Source of the DNA: Nitrospiraceae bacterium
GTDB lineage: Bacteria; Nitrospirota; Thermodesulfovibrionia; Thermodesulfovibrionales; Dissulfurispiraceae
Assembly (NCBI GenBank): GCA_012517735.1
Contig: JAAYUK010000216.1
Span: forward strand, 1 to 41,410
Reading direction: 5' to 3'
DNA: 41,410 bases
The position numbers were made by a program, and so were the translations under genes. The notes under the pieces were generated by a model. It was not told the DNA's origin, searched no databases, and saw nothing but the letters and a program-made list of their open reading frames with translations. Below, piece by piece: positions 14,439 to 41,410 of this stretch; position 1 is the stretch's first letter; every line of letters starts with the position of its first letter.

Positions 14439-14837
14439 CTATTTATTGATGACCTTGATTGCCTTCTTGTTGTCGGCAGTCTTGAAGATACAGGCAGAGG
14501 ATTTTCCGGTTCCGGTTGACCCGTAAAAATAGTGGATGTTCACGCCTGCGGCAGCGATTGCTTTGGAGACTTTCTCCAGCTCGCCGACCTTGTTCGGCAT
14601 CTCGACCAGAACGACCGCTTCATCGTGCATTTCGGCACCCATTTTCTTGAGAAGCTTTTTCGCCTTGGTCAGATCGTCTGCCATCAGCATGAACACCGCC
14701 CGGTCCTCCATCTCATACCCGCACATGGCGCTCACGTTCACTTTTGCTCCGGAAAGGGCTGCGCAGATCTCAGCAGTCAGACCAACCTTGTTCGGCATGA
14801 AAAAAACAACCTGTTTTGCTGCCTTTGCATTTGCCAT
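14439..14837 (-). CDS. Tandem ACT-domain protein
   Basis: A 132-residue stand-alone protein made of two ACT domains: about 8-65 (QVVFFMPNKVGLTAEICAAL) and 73-130 (AVVLVEMPNKVGELEKVSKA). ACT domains bind amino acids or similar small ligands and usually regulate an attached enzyme; here there is no enzymatic part, so it may be a free sensor or partner subunit. The repeated PNKVG turn is the typical ligand-site glycine loop. The ATG at 14837 has AAGGAG six bases upstream, excluding a longer frame to 14942. It sits between the rpsA-type terminator and its own terminator, so it is transcribed alone. Ligand unknown. Confidence 0.87.
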   Translation of the reverse strand: MANAKAAKQVVFFMPNKVGLTAEICAALSGAKVNVSAMCGYEMEDRAVFMLMADDLTKAKKLLKKMGAEMHDEAVVLVEMPNKVGELEKVSKAIAAAGVNIHYFYGSTGTGKSSACIFKTADNKKAIKVINK

Positions 14838-14919
14838 CGAGGATCTCCTTGCACAAAAAGTTTTCTGCTGAACTATAGAATAAATGGCAGCGTCATGACA
14901 AATAGCCGGACATCGCTCC

Positions 14920-14950
14920 AAAAAAAACGGCACGCTGTTCACGTGCCGTT
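14920..14950 (-). terminator. Intrinsic terminator of the S1 gene
   Basis: On the minus strand AACGGCACG (14950-14942) and CGTGCCGTT (14934-14926) form a perfect 9-bp stem with a 7-nt loop followed by eight T in a row. It lies 25 bp after the S1 stop codon. Confidence 0.93.
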
Positions 14951-14975
14951 TGTCTCGATTGCCGGAAAGGAGCGG

Positions 14976-16451
14976 TTACAGCTTCATGCCCTTCTCTTCC
15001 ATCTTTGCCTTCAGCAGCGCCCCGAGGCTGCCCATGCCGGAAGCATCTTCAGACTTAACCGAATCCTGATACTGCTTCAGTTCTTCACGCTCGGCCTTCT
15101 CAAACACTGCCTTGCGGCTGAGGCGCACCTTGCGCTGCTTCTTGTCTACATCAAGGACCAGCACCTGCATAGCGGTGCCGACCGGAAAGGCATGGCTGTG
15201 GTCAGTGCCGAACGGAGTGCCCATCTCGGCATTCGGGATCAGGCCGGTAACCCCGCTCTCCAGCTTGAGAAACACGCCGTACGGCATGATGCTCTCGACG
15301 GTCCCGTTCAGGATCTCGCCAGCCGCAGGCAGAGCCGCTTCTTCCTTCCTGGCCTGTTTGACCTGCGGCTGCAGGGAGAGCGAAATTCTCCGTTCTGCCG
15401 GATCTACGCCGATAATGTAGACTTCAACCGCCTGACCGACCGTGACGACTTCTTTCGGATGATTGATGCGTTTGCCGGTACCGAAGTTCGAAATATGGAT
15501 AAGGCCGTCGAGTCCGGGCTCGAGATTGACAAATGCGCCGAATGCCGTAAGACGGACAACCGTCCCCTCCACCCTGCCGCCGACCTGATATTTTTCGGCA
15601 ACAGCCGCCCACGGATCGGGCTGAAGCGCTTTCAGACTGAGGGAAAGACGATTCTTTTCCCAGTCGATCGAAATGATGCGCGCGGTCACTTCCTGCCCGA
15701 CGGCGAGAACATCGTCCGGCTTGTCGACGCGGTTCCACGACAGTTCGCTGACCGGGATCAGGCCATCGATGCCGCCGAGATCGATAAACGCACCGAATTT
15801 CTGGATCGAGCGGATTTTACCGGTTACATCCTTGCCCACTTCGAGCGTCGCCTTCAGTTCGGCCTGCTTCGCCTTCCGCTCCTCGTCAAGCAGTGCCCGG
15901 CGGGAAAGGATGATATTGCGGCCATCCTCGGAAAGCTCCAGAATGCGGAACGGAAACGCCTGGCCGACATACTGTCCCCCCTCTTTGCCGCCACGCAGAT
16001 CGATCTGGGATGCGGGACAGAATGCGCGGATTCCCTCAATCGAAACCTCAAAGCCGCCCTTCACTTCACGCTTCACATCGCCCGTGACCGGCAAACCGCC
16101 GTCAAAGGCGGCACGCAGCGTGCTCATCTTCACCGCGGAAATACCGCCGCGGATCTTCGTGGTCAGCTCCCGTACGCCATCGCGAACCGAAACAAACGCC
16201 GCCTCGACCTCATCACCCGGCTTCACGCAGACAGCGCCGGTTTCATCCCTGAATTCATCCAGCGCAATCGCGCCTTCGCTCTTTCCGCCCAAGGCGATAT
16301 AGACACGATCGCCCGAGATGCCGATAACGGTGGCTTTCACCTTCTGTCCCGGCTTCAGGCGGTCGGAAACACTCATGCTCTGTTCGAGCAGTTCGGCAAA
16401 ACTCTCTTCTGTCTTCGATTCCTGCTCGATGCTCTTGTTCTCTTCACTCAT
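14976..16451 (-). CDS. rpsA: S1 RNA-binding domain protein (30S ribosomal protein S1-like)
   Basis: A 491-residue protein with five S1/OB-fold repeats, against six in E. coli S1. From the N-terminus: GQKVKATVIGISGDRVYIALG (about 36), a shorter degenerate repeat TGDVKREVKGGFEVSIEGI (about 122), then three good repeats beginning VGKDVTGKIRSIQKFGAFIDLG, VGGRVEGTVVRLTAFGAFVNLE and AGEILNGTVESIMPYGVFLKLE. This matches the S1 family of translation initiation/mRNA-binding proteins, although a dedicated regulatory S1-domain protein cannot be excluded. The ATG at 16451 has GAGGGA nine bases upstream; the frame running to 16517 overlaps the predicted promoter/leader. Followed by a strong terminator. 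Confidence 0.85.
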   Translation of the reverse strand: MSEENKSIEQESKTEESFAELLEQSMSVSDRLKPGQKVKATVIGISGDRVYIALGGKSEGAIALDEFRDETGAVCVKPGDEVEAAFVSVRDGVRELTTKIRGGISAVKMSTLRAAFDGGLPVTGDVKREVKGGFEVSIEGIRAFCPASQIDLRGGKEGGQYVGQAFPFRILELSEDGRNIILSRRALLDEERKAKQAELKATLEVGKDVTGKIRSIQKFGAFIDLGGIDGLIPVSELSWNRVDKPDDVLAVGQEVTARIISIDWEKNRLSLSLKALQPDPWAAVAEKYQVGGRVEGTVVRLTAFGAFVNLEPGLDGLIHISNFGTGKRINHPKEVVTVGQAVEVYIIGVDPAERRISLSLQPQVKQARKEEAALPAAGEILNGTVESIMPYGVFLKLESGVTGLIPNAEMGTPFGTDHSHAFPVGTAMQVLVLDVDKKQRKVRLSRKAVFEKAEREELKQYQDSVKSEDASGMGSLGALLKAKMEEKGMKL

Positions 16452-16475
16452 TGTTCTTCCCTCACTTTTTACAGA

Positions 16476-16498
16476 GAACACCGCAGCATCCGGTGTTC
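16476..16498 (-). promoter_or_regulatory. Hairpin in the S1 mRNA leader
   Basis: CGGTGTTC and GAACACCG form a perfect 8-bp stem with a 7-nt loop (CAGCATC on plus), 25 bases before the S1 start codon and downstream of the predicted -10. S1 genes in other bacteria autoregulate through structured leaders; here that is inference. Confidence 0.45.
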
Positions 16499-16525
16499 CG
16501 TCGATCTTCACAGACAACCCTGTGA

Positions 16526-16534
16526 ATTATACCA
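16526..16534 (-). promoter_or_regulatory. Extended -10 promoter of the S1 gene
   Basis: On the minus strand TGGTATAAT (16534-16526) matches an extended -10 exactly. It lies just upstream of the rlmB stop codon's 3' side, giving a leader of about 68 nt. No strong -35. Confidence 0.5.
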
Positions 16535-16536
16535 TT

Positions 16537-17454
16537 TCAATGCGATAATCTCTTTTCCCGACCCCGCTGGCGAAGCACTTCATACAACAGAATACCGGTT
16601 GCAACCGAGACATTCAGCGACGAGACATGCCCCTTCACCGGCAGTGAGACGATCGTGTCACAGAGATCACGCACCGTCCGGCGGAGCCCTTCGCCCTCGG
16701 AGCCCATAACCACGGCAACCGGCCCGCTCAGGTCAAGATCCCACGGCTCGGTATCGGTGTCGGCCTCCGCACCGACGATTTTCACTCCCGCGTCTTTCAG
16801 GACACGCAGCGCATGCTTGATATTCACCGTCTCAATCAGCGACAGGTGCTCAAGGGCACCGGCAGATGCCTTCGATACCGCAGGGGATATCCCGGCGGAA
16901 CGTTGCTGCTGGAAAATCACGCCATGCACCCCGGCAACTTCCGCAGTGCGGAGCATCGCCCCGAAATTGCGCGGGTCCTCAATGCAGTCTGCCACCAGAA
17001 AAAACGCCCTGCGGCCGGCCTGGGCGAGAAGCTCGGGAAGATCGCTCACGGAGAGCATTTTCTTCCGCGCGACATGTGCAGCGATTCCCTGATGCCCCTT
17101 GCCGAAACGCTCCTCGAAAAAATCCTTCCCGGCATGACGGATGGTGATACGCTGCTTTTCCGCCTTGCGGATGAGGCCGAACACATTGCGGTGCGCTGAG
17201 TCCAGAACATAGATCGCAAACAGCGGCCGGCCGGAGCGCAACGCCTCGCTGACCGGATTGATCCCGTAAATGTATTCCGCGGTATCTTCGGAGCGCCGTC
17301 TCTGCCCGCTGAGCGGCTCTTCTTCGCGCCTGACCGGACGCTCGGGGCGTTCTTTCGGCTCCCGCCTTTTCTGGCGGTCCGGAGCCGGCCTCTGGCCGAA
17401 ACGCGATGTGCGTGAACCGTCAGGACCTCTTTTGCCCGGAGTCCCTTTTCTCAT
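16537..17454 (-). CDS. rlmB: 23S rRNA Gm2251 2'-O-methyltransferase (SpoU/TrmH family)
   Basis: SPOUT-class RNA ribose methyltransferase of 305 residues. A basic, low-complexity N-terminal tail (about 1-55, rich in R/P/E) precedes the substrate-binding domain (YIYGINPVSEALRSG) and the knotted catalytic domain with motif 1 EDPRNFGAMLRTAEVAG, motif 2 VVMGSEGEGLRR and motif 3 LPVKGHVSSLNVSVATGILLYE. RlmB is the best match for the NPVSEAL start; a tRNA or other rRNA target is possible. The ATG at 17454 overlaps the cysS stop in an ATGA; a GTG at 17472 would lie inside cysS. Confidence 0.9.
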   Translation of the reverse strand: MRKGTPGKRGPDGSRTSRFGQRPAPDRQKRREPKERPERPVRREEEPLSGQRRRSEDTAEYIYGINPVSEALRSGRPLFAIYVLDSAHRNVFGLIRKAEKQRITIRHAGKDFFEERFGKGHQGIAAHVARKKMLSVSDLPELLAQAGRRAFFLVADCIEDPRNFGAMLRTAEVAGVHGVIFQQQRSAGISPAVSKASAGALEHLSLIETVNIKHALRVLKDAGVKIVGAEADTDTEPWDLDLSGPVAVVMGSEGEGLRRTVRDLCDTIVSLPVKGHVSSLNVSVATGILLYEVLRQRGREKRLSH

Positions 17455-18923
17455 ACGATCTTGACGCGCCACCCGGTACCATCCTTTTTGTCTTCGAGCA
17501 GAATGCCTGCGGCGTCCAACTCCTGCCTGAGCGCATCGGCTGCTGCCCAGTCCCTGTTTTCACGGGCAACCCGGCGCTCCTGAATCTTGCGCAGGATAAC
17601 CTCCTCGGTCAGGGCAATCTGCTTTGCCCTGAGCAGGTCCACATTCCACTGGTGCGGCGTGCGGCCGAAAAGATTGAGCACTGCGCCGACCGAGCGGAGC
17701 ATCTCGCGCGCATCGGCAAGCAGACCCGCCGCCTCCGCCCCCGATGGTTTGGTATCGAGAAACCGGTTCAACTCGCGGATCATCTCGAAGAGGTGACCCA
17801 CTGCGATCGCGGTATTGAAGTCATCGTCCATCGCTTCAACAAACTGCGGCTGGAAACGCTCCATGACGTTCTTCAACGCTGCCGCTGCAGCAGGCTGCAT
17901 CTTCGGCGCGGCTCCGGCGCTTACTGCGATAAACTCCTCGATGCGAGCAATGGTGCTGTAGTAACGGTCGAGCGACGCCTCGGCATCGCGCAGCTGATCC
18001 TGCGAAAATTCGATCGGGCTCCGGTAGTGGCTCGAAAGCACAAAGAGCCTGATCACTTCCGCATCATAGCTCTTGAGGATTTCCCTGATCGTAAAAAAGT
18101 TGCCGAGCGACTTCGACATCTTCTCCTTGTCGATGGTGATGAACCCGTTATGCACCCAGTATCTGGCAAACGGCTTGCCGCTGAATGCCTCAGACTGTGC
18201 GATCTCGTTTTCGTGATGCGGAAAGATGAGATCGGCCCCGCCGCCATGAATATCGATCGTCTCGCCAAGATGACGCATCGACATGGCCGTGCATTCGATG
18301 TGCCAGCCGGGACGCCCTTTGCCCCACGGGCTTTCCCACCACGGTTCGCCCGCCTTCGACGCCTTCCAGAGCGCAAAATCCATCGGACTCTTCTTCCGCT
18401 CATCAACACCGACACGGGCGCCGGCCCGGAGATCCTCAAGGTCTTTTTTGGAAAGCTTGCCATATTCCGCAAACGTATCGACCGCAAAATACACGCTCTC
18501 GTTGTCGCCTTCGCGCACGGCGTACGCATGCCCCTTGGCAATCAGCGTGCGGATAACCTCAATCATCTCGGCGATATGGTCCGTCGCCTTCGGTTCGATA
18601 TCCGCCCGGGCGATGCCGAGCGCATCCATATCGCGATAATATTCTTCAATGAATTGTGCTGCCACCGCATCCCAGGTGGCTCCGGTTTCGTTCGCGCGGC
18701 GGATGATCTTGTCGTCGATATCGGTAAAATTGCGGACAAAGGTGGTCTGAAACCCCTTGTAGCGGAGATAGCGGCTGATTACGTCGAACACGATGGCAGA
18801 CCGCGCATGCCCGACATGGCAGTAATCGTACACCGTCACCCCGCAGGCATACATGCCGACCTTGCCCGGCTGGAGCGGAACAAACGCTTCTTTCATGCCG
18901 GTCATCGTGTTGTAAATCTTCAT
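17451..18923 (-). CDS. cysS: Cysteinyl-tRNA synthetase
   Basis: Class I aminoacyl-tRNA synthetase, 490 residues, attaching cysteine to tRNA-Cys. HVGHARS at 36-42 is the HIGH motif, KMSKSLGNF around residue 265 is the second signature. Zinc ligands are expected at Cys27 (ACGVTVYD), the Cys in HIECTAMS, and the His/Glu of FPHHENEIAQSE. The C-terminal DALR-type helical domain and the GWRVK end are intact. The ATG at 18923 is chosen because MKIYNTMTG is the family start and AAGGGAAG lies upstream; the open frame continues to 19022 without support. Coupled to rlmB. Confidence 0.97.
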   Translation of the reverse strand: MKIYNTMTGMKEAFVPLQPGKVGMYACGVTVYDYCHVGHARSAIVFDVISRYLRYKGFQTTFVRNFTDIDDKIIRRANETGATWDAVAAQFIEEYYRDMDALGIARADIEPKATDHIAEMIEVIRTLIAKGHAYAVREGDNESVYFAVDTFAEYGKLSKKDLEDLRAGARVGVDERKKSPMDFALWKASKAGEPWWESPWGKGRPGWHIECTAMSMRHLGETIDIHGGGADLIFPHHENEIAQSEAFSGKPFARYWVHNGFITIDKEKMSKSLGNFFTIREILKSYDAEVIRLFVLSSHYRSPIEFSQDQLRDAEASLDRYYSTIARIEEFIAVSAGAAPKMQPAAAAALKNVMERFQPQFVEAMDDDFNTAIAVGHLFEMIRELNRFLDTKPSGAEAAGLLADAREMLRSVGAVLNLFGRTPHQWNVDLLRAKQIALTEEVILRKIQERRVARENRDWAAADALRQELDAAGILLEDKKDGTGWRVKIV

Positions 18924-19211
18924 ACCGCTTCCCTTTCCATTACCGGTGCCGTCGACAGCTTCGCCGCCGGCCTGAAGTCTTCTGCCCTGACGATTCCTCG
19001 GGAACTCACACAATGATCGCATCGCATGGCACTTCTGATGAGGACTGCAGAGTTAGCTGTTAGTTTACCATAATTGCTGCCTTGGAGCGGTATTTCACCT
19101 GCCGTGGCGGCGTTCAGACATGGACTTTGTTCTTTGAGTCCCGATCGGGTATGATTACGAAAGCCGCCGGCGCCGCTGCAGGCGGCGAATCATGTGCGAT
19201 GGAGCGATCTC

Positions 19212-38973: not shown

Positions 38974-40026
38974 TCAGACAGAGTTCACAATTTCACCCGC
39001 AATTTCCTCGATCGACAGAACCTTGTCCGCAATGCCTGCATCGACAACCGCCTTCGGCATGCCGTACACAACACAGCTCTCCTCGTTCTGGGCAAAAATG
39101 CGGCCGCCGGTTTTTTTCAGCTCGATCATGCCTTTCATGCCGTCGTTGCCCATGCCGGTCAGGATGACCCCGAGCGCACGGCCGGGAAAGAACTCCGCAA
39201 CGGATGCCATGAGCGCATCAACCGAGGGTCGGTAAATAAAGTTCTCGCGGTCTTCGGAAATCGTTACCGTTGTCTCAATCCCGCGTTTTCGGGCTACCCG
39301 CATATGACCGCCGCCGGGCGCGATCAGGATCAGGCCGGGTTTAAGCACATCACCCTCTTTCGCTTCGCGAACCTCCAGTTTGCAGAGCTGATTGAGCCGC
39401 TCCGCAAACGGACCGGTAAAATTCGGCGGCATATGCTGCGCAATGACGATCGGCACGGGAAACTCCTTCGGCAGCGAAGGGAGAACTTCCTGCAGTGCCT
39501 TGGGGCCGCCGGTTGAAGTTCCGATGGCGACCAGCCCGACACGGCGCTCGCCGGTTGTACGCAAAACCGGGGCAGCCGCCACCGGTGCGGTCGCAGGGCG
39601 CGCCGCCGGACGCACTATGCGCCGGGGAACGCCTTTTCGTGCGAGCTGCTTGATCTTGTCAACGAGTACCTCTTTGAGGCGGAGGATGTTCAGGGAAAGA
39701 TCGGACAGGTTTTTTGGAATAAAATCAACCGCTCCATGCTCAAGCGCTTCCAGAGTGATATGCGCTCCTTCCACGGTCAGGGAACTGACCATGATAACCG
39801 GAACGGGCGTGTTCGCCATGATATGTTTGAGGGCCGAAATCCCGTCCATGCGGGGCATTTCAACATCCATGGTCACAATGTCAGGTTTCAGTTGGGCTAC
39901 TTTTTCGATTGCCTCCAAACCGTCCCGGGCGGATCCGGCGATCTGGATTTCCGGATCGGATGAAAGCATGTTTGAGAGCGCGCTCCTCATGAACGCGGAA
40001 TCATCAACAATAAGGACTCTAACCAT
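38974..40026 (-). CDS. cheB: Chemotaxis response regulator protein-glutamate methylesterase
   Basis: Demethylates (and deamidates) receptor glutamates to reset sensitivity. Residues 1-120 are a receiver domain with the acidic pair DD at 8-9, phosphoacceptor Asp54 (VTMDVEMPRMDG) and VSSLT. An Ala/Pro/Arg linker (about 130-160) leads to the methylesterase with the Ser171-His198-Asp295 triad in GTSTGG, AQHMP and GMGNDG. The 350-residue length is standard. GGGGAG precedes the ATG. It lies 49 bp after the CheW-CheZ gene; no cheR is in the window. Confidence 0.97.
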   Translation of the reverse strand: MVRVLIVDDSAFMRSALSNMLSSDPEIQIAGSARDGLEAIEKVAQLKPDIVTMDVEMPRMDGISALKHIMANTPVPVIMVSSLTVEGAHITLEALEHGAVDFIPKNLSDLSLNILRLKEVLVDKIKQLARKGVPRRIVRPAARPATAPVAAAPVLRTTGERRVGLVAIGTSTGGPKALQEVLPSLPKEFPVPIVIAQHMPPNFTGPFAERLNQLCKLEVREAKEGDVLKPGLILIAPGGGHMRVARKRGIETTVTISEDRENFIYRPSVDALMASVAEFFPGRALGVILTGMGNDGMKGMIELKKTGGRIFAQNEESCVVYGMPKAVVDAGIADKVLSIEEIAGEIVNSV

Positions 40027-40075: not shown

Positions 40076-41275
40076 CTAGAAGCCGAAATCCTTCAGAAGG
40101 TCATCGACGCCCTCCTGCGAAACTTTGTCCCCGGATGTGCCGGGCCCGTAATACACCGCTTCCTTGGCCGGTTCCATCTTGACGCCGAACGTCGTGATAA
40201 GGCGAACCAGTTCACTCTCGATATCGCCGACGAGACTGATGACCTTCTTGATTGTCTGGCCCGTAAGGTCCTGGAATGACTGGGTTGTCAGGATCTCGGT
40301 CAGATCGTCTTCGAGCCCGCTTTTATATGCCTTCAGGAATTCGACAGACTCCTCCGGTCCCGTTATGTTCCGGATATGCGCAGAGAGATCGTCCATGGTC
40401 AGAATATACTTTTCCACGATGCCCATCGTCTTGTTCGCGGCTGCCTCGGTCCGCTCGATCACCATCTGGAGCTGATCCACCGCATTCGGCATCTCCGAAA
40501 CCGCCATATCCTTCAACTTGGGATCCAGCGCCTCCTTGAAGCTCCGGATCGAGTCGTGCAGCTTGCGCGTCACCTTGCCGACTTCCTTGAAAAGACTGGC
40601 GTCGCTCGACGCCATGATCTGCTGGATCGCCTCATCCGCCTTGTCGTAATCCTGATTGGATATTGCATTCATGAAATCGACCAGCCGTTCGAAAACAACC
40701 TGCTTGCCGCCCTGTGCAGCGGTGGCCTGCTTTTCAAAATACTGTCTGGCATCGACGACTTCCTTTACCGCCACCTCACCGCCCATGGTCTGGATATGCC
40801 TGACCACCTCAACATTTCCCTCCCCGGTCTCGGTTACATTGAGTACCTGGTCTTCGAACATGGCGGCATCTTCCACCGGCACGAGCTTTTTGGTATCGAT
40901 CAGCACAACGAGGCGGTCATCAACACGGGCGACTCCCTGCACCTGATCGATATGCCCTTTAAGAAAATTCTCTGCAGGCTCGATCTGGTCATCCTCAATG
41001 GTTATGACGCCCGTAATGCCGTCAATCAGCACGCCGAAGGTCAGACGGCCACTCGAAACCACAATGACCTTCTGTCCCGGCTCCTGATCGTTCAGGCCGA
41101 CCAGTCTCTTGAGGTTGATGATGGGTATGATGCGGCCGCGGAGATTGGCAATGCCGTCAATGTAGCTTGGAGCCTGCGGCAGCTTGGTCAGCTGCGGACG
41201 GTTGATGATCTCCTGCACCTTGAGTATCGGAATGGTATACTCGCATCCGTTCATGATAAATCCGATATGTTGCAT
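40076..41275 (-). CDS. CheW-CheZ fusion: receptor-coupling domain joined to CheY-P phosphatase
   Basis: A 399-residue chemotaxis protein with two functions. Residues 1-135 are a CheW domain (FIMNGCEYTIPILKVQEII, SYIDGIANLRGRIIPIINLKRL, FGVLIDGITGVI), which would dock on receptors and CheA. Residues about 180-399 are CheZ: a long helical hairpin, the catalytic signature SFQDLTGQTIKKVI in which Asp336 and Gln340 correspond to E. coli Asp143 and Gln147, and the extreme C-terminal GVDDLLKDFGF matching the CheY-P-binding tail of CheZ. All the key phosphatase residues are kept. The ATG at 41275 has GGAGGAG directly upstream. It follows cheA and precedes cheB. Confidence 0.92.
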   Translation of the reverse strand: MQHIGFIMNGCEYTIPILKVQEIINRPQLTKLPQAPSYIDGIANLRGRIIPIINLKRLVGLNDQEPGQKVIVVSSGRLTFGVLIDGITGVITIEDDQIEPAENFLKGHIDQVQGVARVDDRLVVLIDTKKLVPVEDAAMFEDQVLNVTETGEGNVEVVRHIQTMGGEVAVKEVVDARQYFEKQATAAQGGKQVVFERLVDFMNAISNQDYDKADEAIQQIMASSDASLFKEVGKVTRKLHDSIRSFKEALDPKLKDMAVSEMPNAVDQLQMVIERTEAAANKTMGIVEKYILTMDDLSAHIRNITGPEESVEFLKAYKSGLEDDLTEILTTQSFQDLTGQTIKKVISLVGDIESELVRLITTFGVKMEPAKEAVYYGPGTSGDKVSQEGVDDLLKDFGF

Positions 41276-41321: not shown

Positions 41322-41410
41322 TTATTTTACGCCCGCGAGAAAGATCCGGCGGGCTATGACTGCAAGGTCAAGAATCAGCACAACCCGACCGTCGCCGGTA
41401 ATGGTTGCGC
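41322..41410 (-). CDS. cheA: C-terminal end of chemotaxis kinase CheA (cut by window edge)
   Basis: The last 28 codons of a gene entering from the window edge, ending TAA at 41322. They read ATITGDGRVVLILDLAVIAR..., the pattern that ends the CheW-like P5 domain of CheA (GA-T-I-x-GDG-V-LILD). Upstream of the CheW-CheZ gene, 46 bp away, this fits cheA. Only the tail is visible, so kinase integrity cannot be judged. Confidence 0.8.
   Translation of the reverse strand, partial: ATITGDGRVVLILDLAVIARRIFLAGVK

Follow-up and report, generated by a model that had tools for sequence, protein, structure and literature searches.

CheWZ, a 399-residue protein encoded in the 41,410-nucleotide stretch of DNA analyzed here (the window), is composed of a CheW domain, a linker and a CheZ domain read in one uninterrupted frame. 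Fusion of CheW to CheZ is the standard, near-fixed form of CheZ in the class to which the window belongs. On the evidence of its sequence, CheWZ is likely to be the CheY-P phosphatase of flagellar chemotaxis and to be anchored in the receptor array by its own CheW domain. Because CheZ is here built onto the CheW adaptor, the sensor array of this class probably includes the off-switch of the swimming signal.

Domain Architecture of CheWZ

The cheWZ gene starts with an ATG at 41275, 5′ of which lies a Shine-Dalgarno sequence (GGAGGAG), and its stop codon occupies positions 40078-40076. Pfam profile searches assigned residues 3-132 to CheW (PF01584; E = 5.5e-32, 110.7 bits versus a cut-off of 23.5) and two stretches extending up to residue 399 to CheZ (PF04344; E = 1.9e-35, 123.1 bits versus a curated cut-off of 30.7). 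The first-pass annotation had placed both domains in a single frame and had set the presence of CheZ within residues 180-399 as a test of that proposal; the 399 codons run without interruption, and CheZ was located in that region by the profile search. The N-terminal half matched solved CheW structures in sequence (E = 1.4e-20) and the C-terminal half matched E. coli CheZ (1KMI; E = 2.2e-12), with an alignment to P. aeruginosa CheZ that reached back to approximately residue 192. The CheW and CheZ parts were each recognized by NCBI models, among which there is none dedicated to the CheW-CheZ fusion. No receiver domain was detected in CheWZ by Pfam, the arrangement that defines CheV being a CheW domain followed by a receiver. 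An AlphaFold2 model of CheWZ with three full-length relatives (four sequences only) had a mean pLDDT of 38 and was uninformative.

Orthologues of the same extent, with 54-80% identity, are present in dozens of genomes. Misassembly or a chance match was considered as the source of the fusion and rejected, since many other genomes have the same protein in the same order of genes. The features of the locus are collected in Table 1.

Table 1. Positions of cheWZ, its parts and its immediate neighbors in the window
Feature	Position	Strand	Basis or remark
cheA, C-terminal end (ATITGDGRVVLILDLAVIARRIFLAGVK, stop)	41322..41408	-	Read from sequence; adjoins cheWZ upstream
cheWZ, whole gene, 399 residues	40076..41275	-	Frame and Shine-Dalgarno; both domains by Pfam; orthologues
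CheW domain (adaptor), residues 1-135; contains E22/R46	40871..41275	-	PF01584; alignment to E. coli CheW
Interdomain linker, residues 136-191	40703..40870	-	No Pfam family; moderate conservation (0.56)
CheZ domain, residues 192-399, N-terminal helix included	40076..40702	-	PF04344; 1KMI; alignment to P. aeruginosa CheZ
Catalytic D336 to Q340 (DLTGQ)	40256..40270	-	Aligned with the catalytic Asp and Gln of E. coli CheZ
CheY-P-binding tail (putative), residues 385-399 (VSQEGVDDLLKDFGF)	40079..40123	-	Matches E. coli CheZ tail VASQDQVDDLLDSLGF
cheB	38974..40026	-	Directly downstream of cheWZ; CheB_methylest E = 1.7e-68, receiver E = 5e-23

Conservation of Residues in Both Halves of the Fused Proteins

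Conservation was counted over 55 distinct CheWZ fusions of the window's class. Two residues of the CheW half, E22 and R46, are present in all 55; alignment to E. coli CheW identifies them as the counterparts of E38 and R62, which form the conserved salt bridge discussed in PMC3828127. In its fold and in the E38/R62 residues, the CheW half of CheWZ agrees with CheW (PF01584) as well as with CheA P5. As a whole it is conserved to the same degree as the remainder of the protein (0.66), and the best-conserved segment of CheWZ is the tail spanning residues 385-399 (0.82), in which L394 and G398 are present in 55/55.

In the CheZ half, the catalytic D336 is kept in every one of the 55 fusions and Q340 in 52. 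The numbering that the first-pass annotation had given to these residues (SFQDLTGQ) and to the tail (GVDDLLKDFGF) proved correct, as did its view that both elements are intact: the pair aligns with that of E. coli CheZ, and the tail is conserved across the fused proteins. All three exceptions at Q340 have Arg (EFQDLTGR) and are second copies lying outside the che operon, in genomes G005, G015 and G024 (L063:10054-11238, L064:8903-10081 and L078:9627-10817); in each, both the CheW residues and the tail that binds CheY-P are retained. The copy inside the che operon keeps D336 and Q340 throughout. The Arg-bearing copies are good candidates for adaptors that bind CheY-P without catalyzing its dephosphorylation, and the loss of the catalytic Gln from three second copies suggests that at least some members of the CheWZ family have a non-catalytic role.

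Gene Neighborhood of cheWZ

The end of the contig at 41410 cuts the cheA gene of the window. The same place is occupied by cheA in relatives (L003, L060, L061 and L097), and the remaining cheA end resembles the CheA end of L096. With the last bases of the contig read as the C-terminal end of cheA, the gene order is cheA-cheWZ-cheB. On the 3′ side of cheB lie an HDOD gene and then the flagellar genes flgF, flgG, flgH, flgI and others. Two arrangements were observed in relatives, namely flhA-flhF-flhG-fliA-HEAT repeat protein-cheR-receiver-cheY-cheA-cheWZ-cheB and cheY-cheWZ-cheA-cheB-cheW. In the second of these, cheWZ occupies the position that unfused cheZ holds in P. aeruginosa, where the matching order is flhA-flhF-fleN-fliA-cheY-cheZ-cheA, and in G086, a genome of family f20. 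A separate cheW is absent from many cheWZ-bearing clusters (L060, L061, L097 and L003).

Almost all clusters of the class encode, between fliA and cheR, the HEAT-repeat protein of ∼620 residues (L059:13210-15075; counterpart, for example, L066:5553-7427), which is possibly a scaffold. In G006, two related 108-residue coiled-coil proteins are encoded on either side of cheWZ (L059:9311-9637 and L059:7765-8091). Elsewhere in the window, two long plus-strand frames without Pfam matches (14532-16709 and 17406-19016; 725 and 536 residues) lie antisense to ribosomal-S1-like and cysteinyl-tRNA synthetase genes and are most likely spurious products of a GC-rich genome.

Distribution of the Fusion in Nitrospirota

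The taxonomic spread of the architecture, which the first-pass annotation had singled out for checking, was surveyed within Nitrospirota by a CheZ profile search over 296 genomes and a search with whole CheWZ, with inspection of doubtful cases. CheW and CheZ were fused in 60 of the 62 genomes of the window's class that have CheZ over the Pfam cut-off. The two exceptions are a contig-edge fragment in G300 and an unfused CheZ on a 3.7-kb contig of G206, the latter a probable contaminant.

Outside the class, CheZ of Nitrospirota is mostly a separate protein of ∼200-280 residues (for example, in families f27 and f33). Family f20 has the fusion in three genomes (two by Pfam and the third, L112, by reading), and in another of its genomes, G086, the gene between cheY and cheA encodes a 203-residue CheZ that is not fused. 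In family f28 (L085, L086, L088 and L115), the ∼150-190 residues N-terminal to CheZ resemble a decayed CheW domain, for which the CheW profile gave E = 2.7e-4, below the cut-off, in one member and no score in two; these proteins may represent a third fusion or a degenerate fusion. A CheWZ that is 58% identical to that of the window was found in G111, which belongs to family f23 of another class (L096:5436-6635). Its 10.8-kb contig carries a matching che cluster, and its presence there is a case of horizontal transfer or contamination. G045, G009 and G189 (contig C26) gave weak CheZ matches that did not reach the cut-off and were set aside; that in G045 falls on an MCP-like protein, and that in G009 adjoins a receiver protein. 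A search for fusions outside Nitrospirota in 72,556 plasmid records, a set that includes chromosome-sized entries, gave no match spanning 80% of the CheWZ protein.

Evolutionary Origins of the Fusion

In a tree of CheZ halves, the fusions of the window's class group with gammaproteobacterial CheZ, apart from the other CheZ proteins of Nitrospirota, and those of family f20 group with the unfused CheZ of f20. A single origin of the two sets of fusions, imposed on the CheZ halves, was rejected (log-likelihood 76 lower, p-AU 1.35e-91), in a comparison that involves long branches. The unfused CheZ of G086 within f20 agrees with a separate origin there. Given that the constrained tree was rejected and that an unfused member lies inside f20, the phylogeny indicates that the CheW-CheZ fusion arose at least twice.

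In the CheW tree, most fused CheW domains of the class fall into one group, the exceptions being the two from family f14. This group stands apart from CheV and CheA P5 domains and from the separate CheW proteins of the same lineages; the deepest fork has limited support. The class fusions may share one origin, support at that depth being weak.

Probable Independence from CheA-short

In E. coli, CheZ is brought to the array by the D(D/E)WF motif at the tip of its hairpin, which binds CheA-short, the form of CheA starting at Met98 (PMC7750401). This tip motif is absent from the CheWZ of the window and from the class fusions inspected. In class fusions of the window's type, the GxxTR anchor and the catalytic motif lie 99-101 residues apart, compared with 119-121 in CheZ of E. 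coli, Aeromonas and P. aeruginosa and with 110-118 in the remaining class fusions measured. The hairpin of the window's protein, with 101 residues between the anchors, is 18-20 residues shorter than those of E. coli and P. aeruginosa. A crude scan for internal starts was applied to 18 cognate cheA genes, a set that excludes the truncated gene of the window. In 15 of the 18, no ATG or GTG with a ribosome-site-like sequence upstream was found in codons 76-135, and the same scan of E. coli cheA returned Met98 and one more start. The combination of aromatic tip and internal cheA start that characterizes localization by CheA-short in E. coli was therefore not observed. The absent tip, the shortened hairpin and the scan of cognate cheA genes together support the earlier proposal that the fused protein is independent of CheA-short.

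Unfused CheZ proteins of alpha- and deltaproteobacteria also have a short hairpin without a CheA-short site (PMC7750401). Given that the same loss occurs in these unfused proteins, the loss alone fits, but does not prove, replacement of CheA-short by CheW. One such protein, CheZ of Azorhizobium caulinodans, has a short hairpin and no CheA-short motif, yet is polar, and localizes via an N-terminal helical region and unknown partners (PMC7750401); unlike CheWZ, it has no CheW domain. Replacement of CheA-short by the CheW domain as the anchor of CheZ is the best reading of the features of CheWZ.

The first-pass annotation had overlooked that E. coli CheZ is already localized to the array, so the novelty of CheWZ lies in the means of anchoring. 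No published description of the CheW-CheZ architecture was found in a literature search that was thin on subscription journals. As the architecture may already be listed in public domain databases, novelty is claimed for the description only.

Proposed Function of CheWZ

CheWZ shares the catalytic Asp and Gln, the hairpin bundle and the C-terminal CheY-P tail with the CheZ proteins of E. coli and P. aeruginosa, both of which, by contrast, stand alone and lack CheW. E. coli CheZ (1KMI) is a homodimer. By analogy, the CheZ half of CheWZ would form a dimeric helical hairpin whose C-terminal tail binds CheY-P, and the CheW half would occupy positions like those of CheW and CheA P5 in the rings at the receptor tips. 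Insertion of Q340 would then accelerate dephosphorylation of CheY-P, as judged from residue conservation and from the mechanism known for E. coli CheZ. The outcome would be a phosphatase located at the kinase without the use of CheA-short. Such a placement might create the spatially confined CheY-P sink that the first-pass annotation had proposed.

In its presumed mode of action, CheWZ is like CheV, in which a CheW domain brings a partner controlling the CheY-P level into the array; a role as phosphate sink has been suggested for CheV (PMC4742279). The partner in CheV is a receiver that takes phosphate, whereas in CheWZ it is the CheZ phosphatase, and the CheW domains of the two proteins occupy separate regions of the CheW tree.

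Both the gradient of CheY-P and the speed of chemotactic responses depend on where the CheY-P phosphatase is located. Placement at the array may be of functional benefit. Covalent fusion appears to be the solution of one bacterial class, reached independently in a second lineage. The unfused CheZ of a sister genome, at the same operon position, would allow the purpose of anchoring to be tested by cutting and swapping domains.

Three other readings were weighed against anchoring. In the first, the CheW half is a regulatory input through which the state of the ring tunes the phosphatase, so that signal termination depends on the stimulus. This is unlikely given that anchoring alone accounts for the data and no sign of allostery is apparent in the sequence, although the linker is moderately conserved rather than free-running and recurrence of the fusion suggests more than proximity.

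In the second, which we consider slightly less probable, CheWZ is mainly a structural adaptor that bridges two array positions or rings in the manner of the CheA dimer, with dephosphorylation secondary. Since CheZ is dimeric, each CheWZ molecule would offer two linked CheW domains, and both the clusters that have cheWZ and no separate cheW and the Arg-bearing second copies are in keeping with such a role. Against it stand the invariable D336/Q340 of the operon copy, the exceptional conservation of the CheY-P tail and the lack of any other recognized CheY-P phosphatase in the genome of the window. Elements of these two readings would combine if CheWZ were a stimulus-gated, dimeric array component, its CheW pair bridging ring positions and the signaling state controlling the phosphatase. 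Kinase and phosphatase would then be switched together in one lattice, and the Gln-to-Arg copies would be non-catalytic adaptors that bind CheY-P; such an arrangement is improbable.

The third, that the CheW half no longer docks and is a leftover or merely stabilizes the protein, has its parallel in the f28 domain decayed to near or beyond the Pfam threshold but is very improbable for the class, where the CheW half is conserved like the rest of the protein and neither E22 nor R46 is ever replaced.

Other Chemotaxis Components of the Genome

A search for another CheY-P phosphatase in the genome of the window recognized neither CheX nor CheC, and this candidate source of dephosphorylation was rejected; CheWZ is therefore the only CheY-P phosphatase recognized there. 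Of the seven other fused genomes tested, six likewise lack CheX. Two further CheW genes are found at contig ends (C11 and C155), together with a CheV-like protein (C133), a second CheA accompanied by a CheW of its own (C4) and seven receptors. Given these separate CheW proteins, CheWZ is not the sole adaptor and might enter arrays rarely. The second chemosensory cluster (L069, G000:C4, 9068-13508) encodes, in order, a receiver-DUF4388 protein, a receiver, CheW and CheA.
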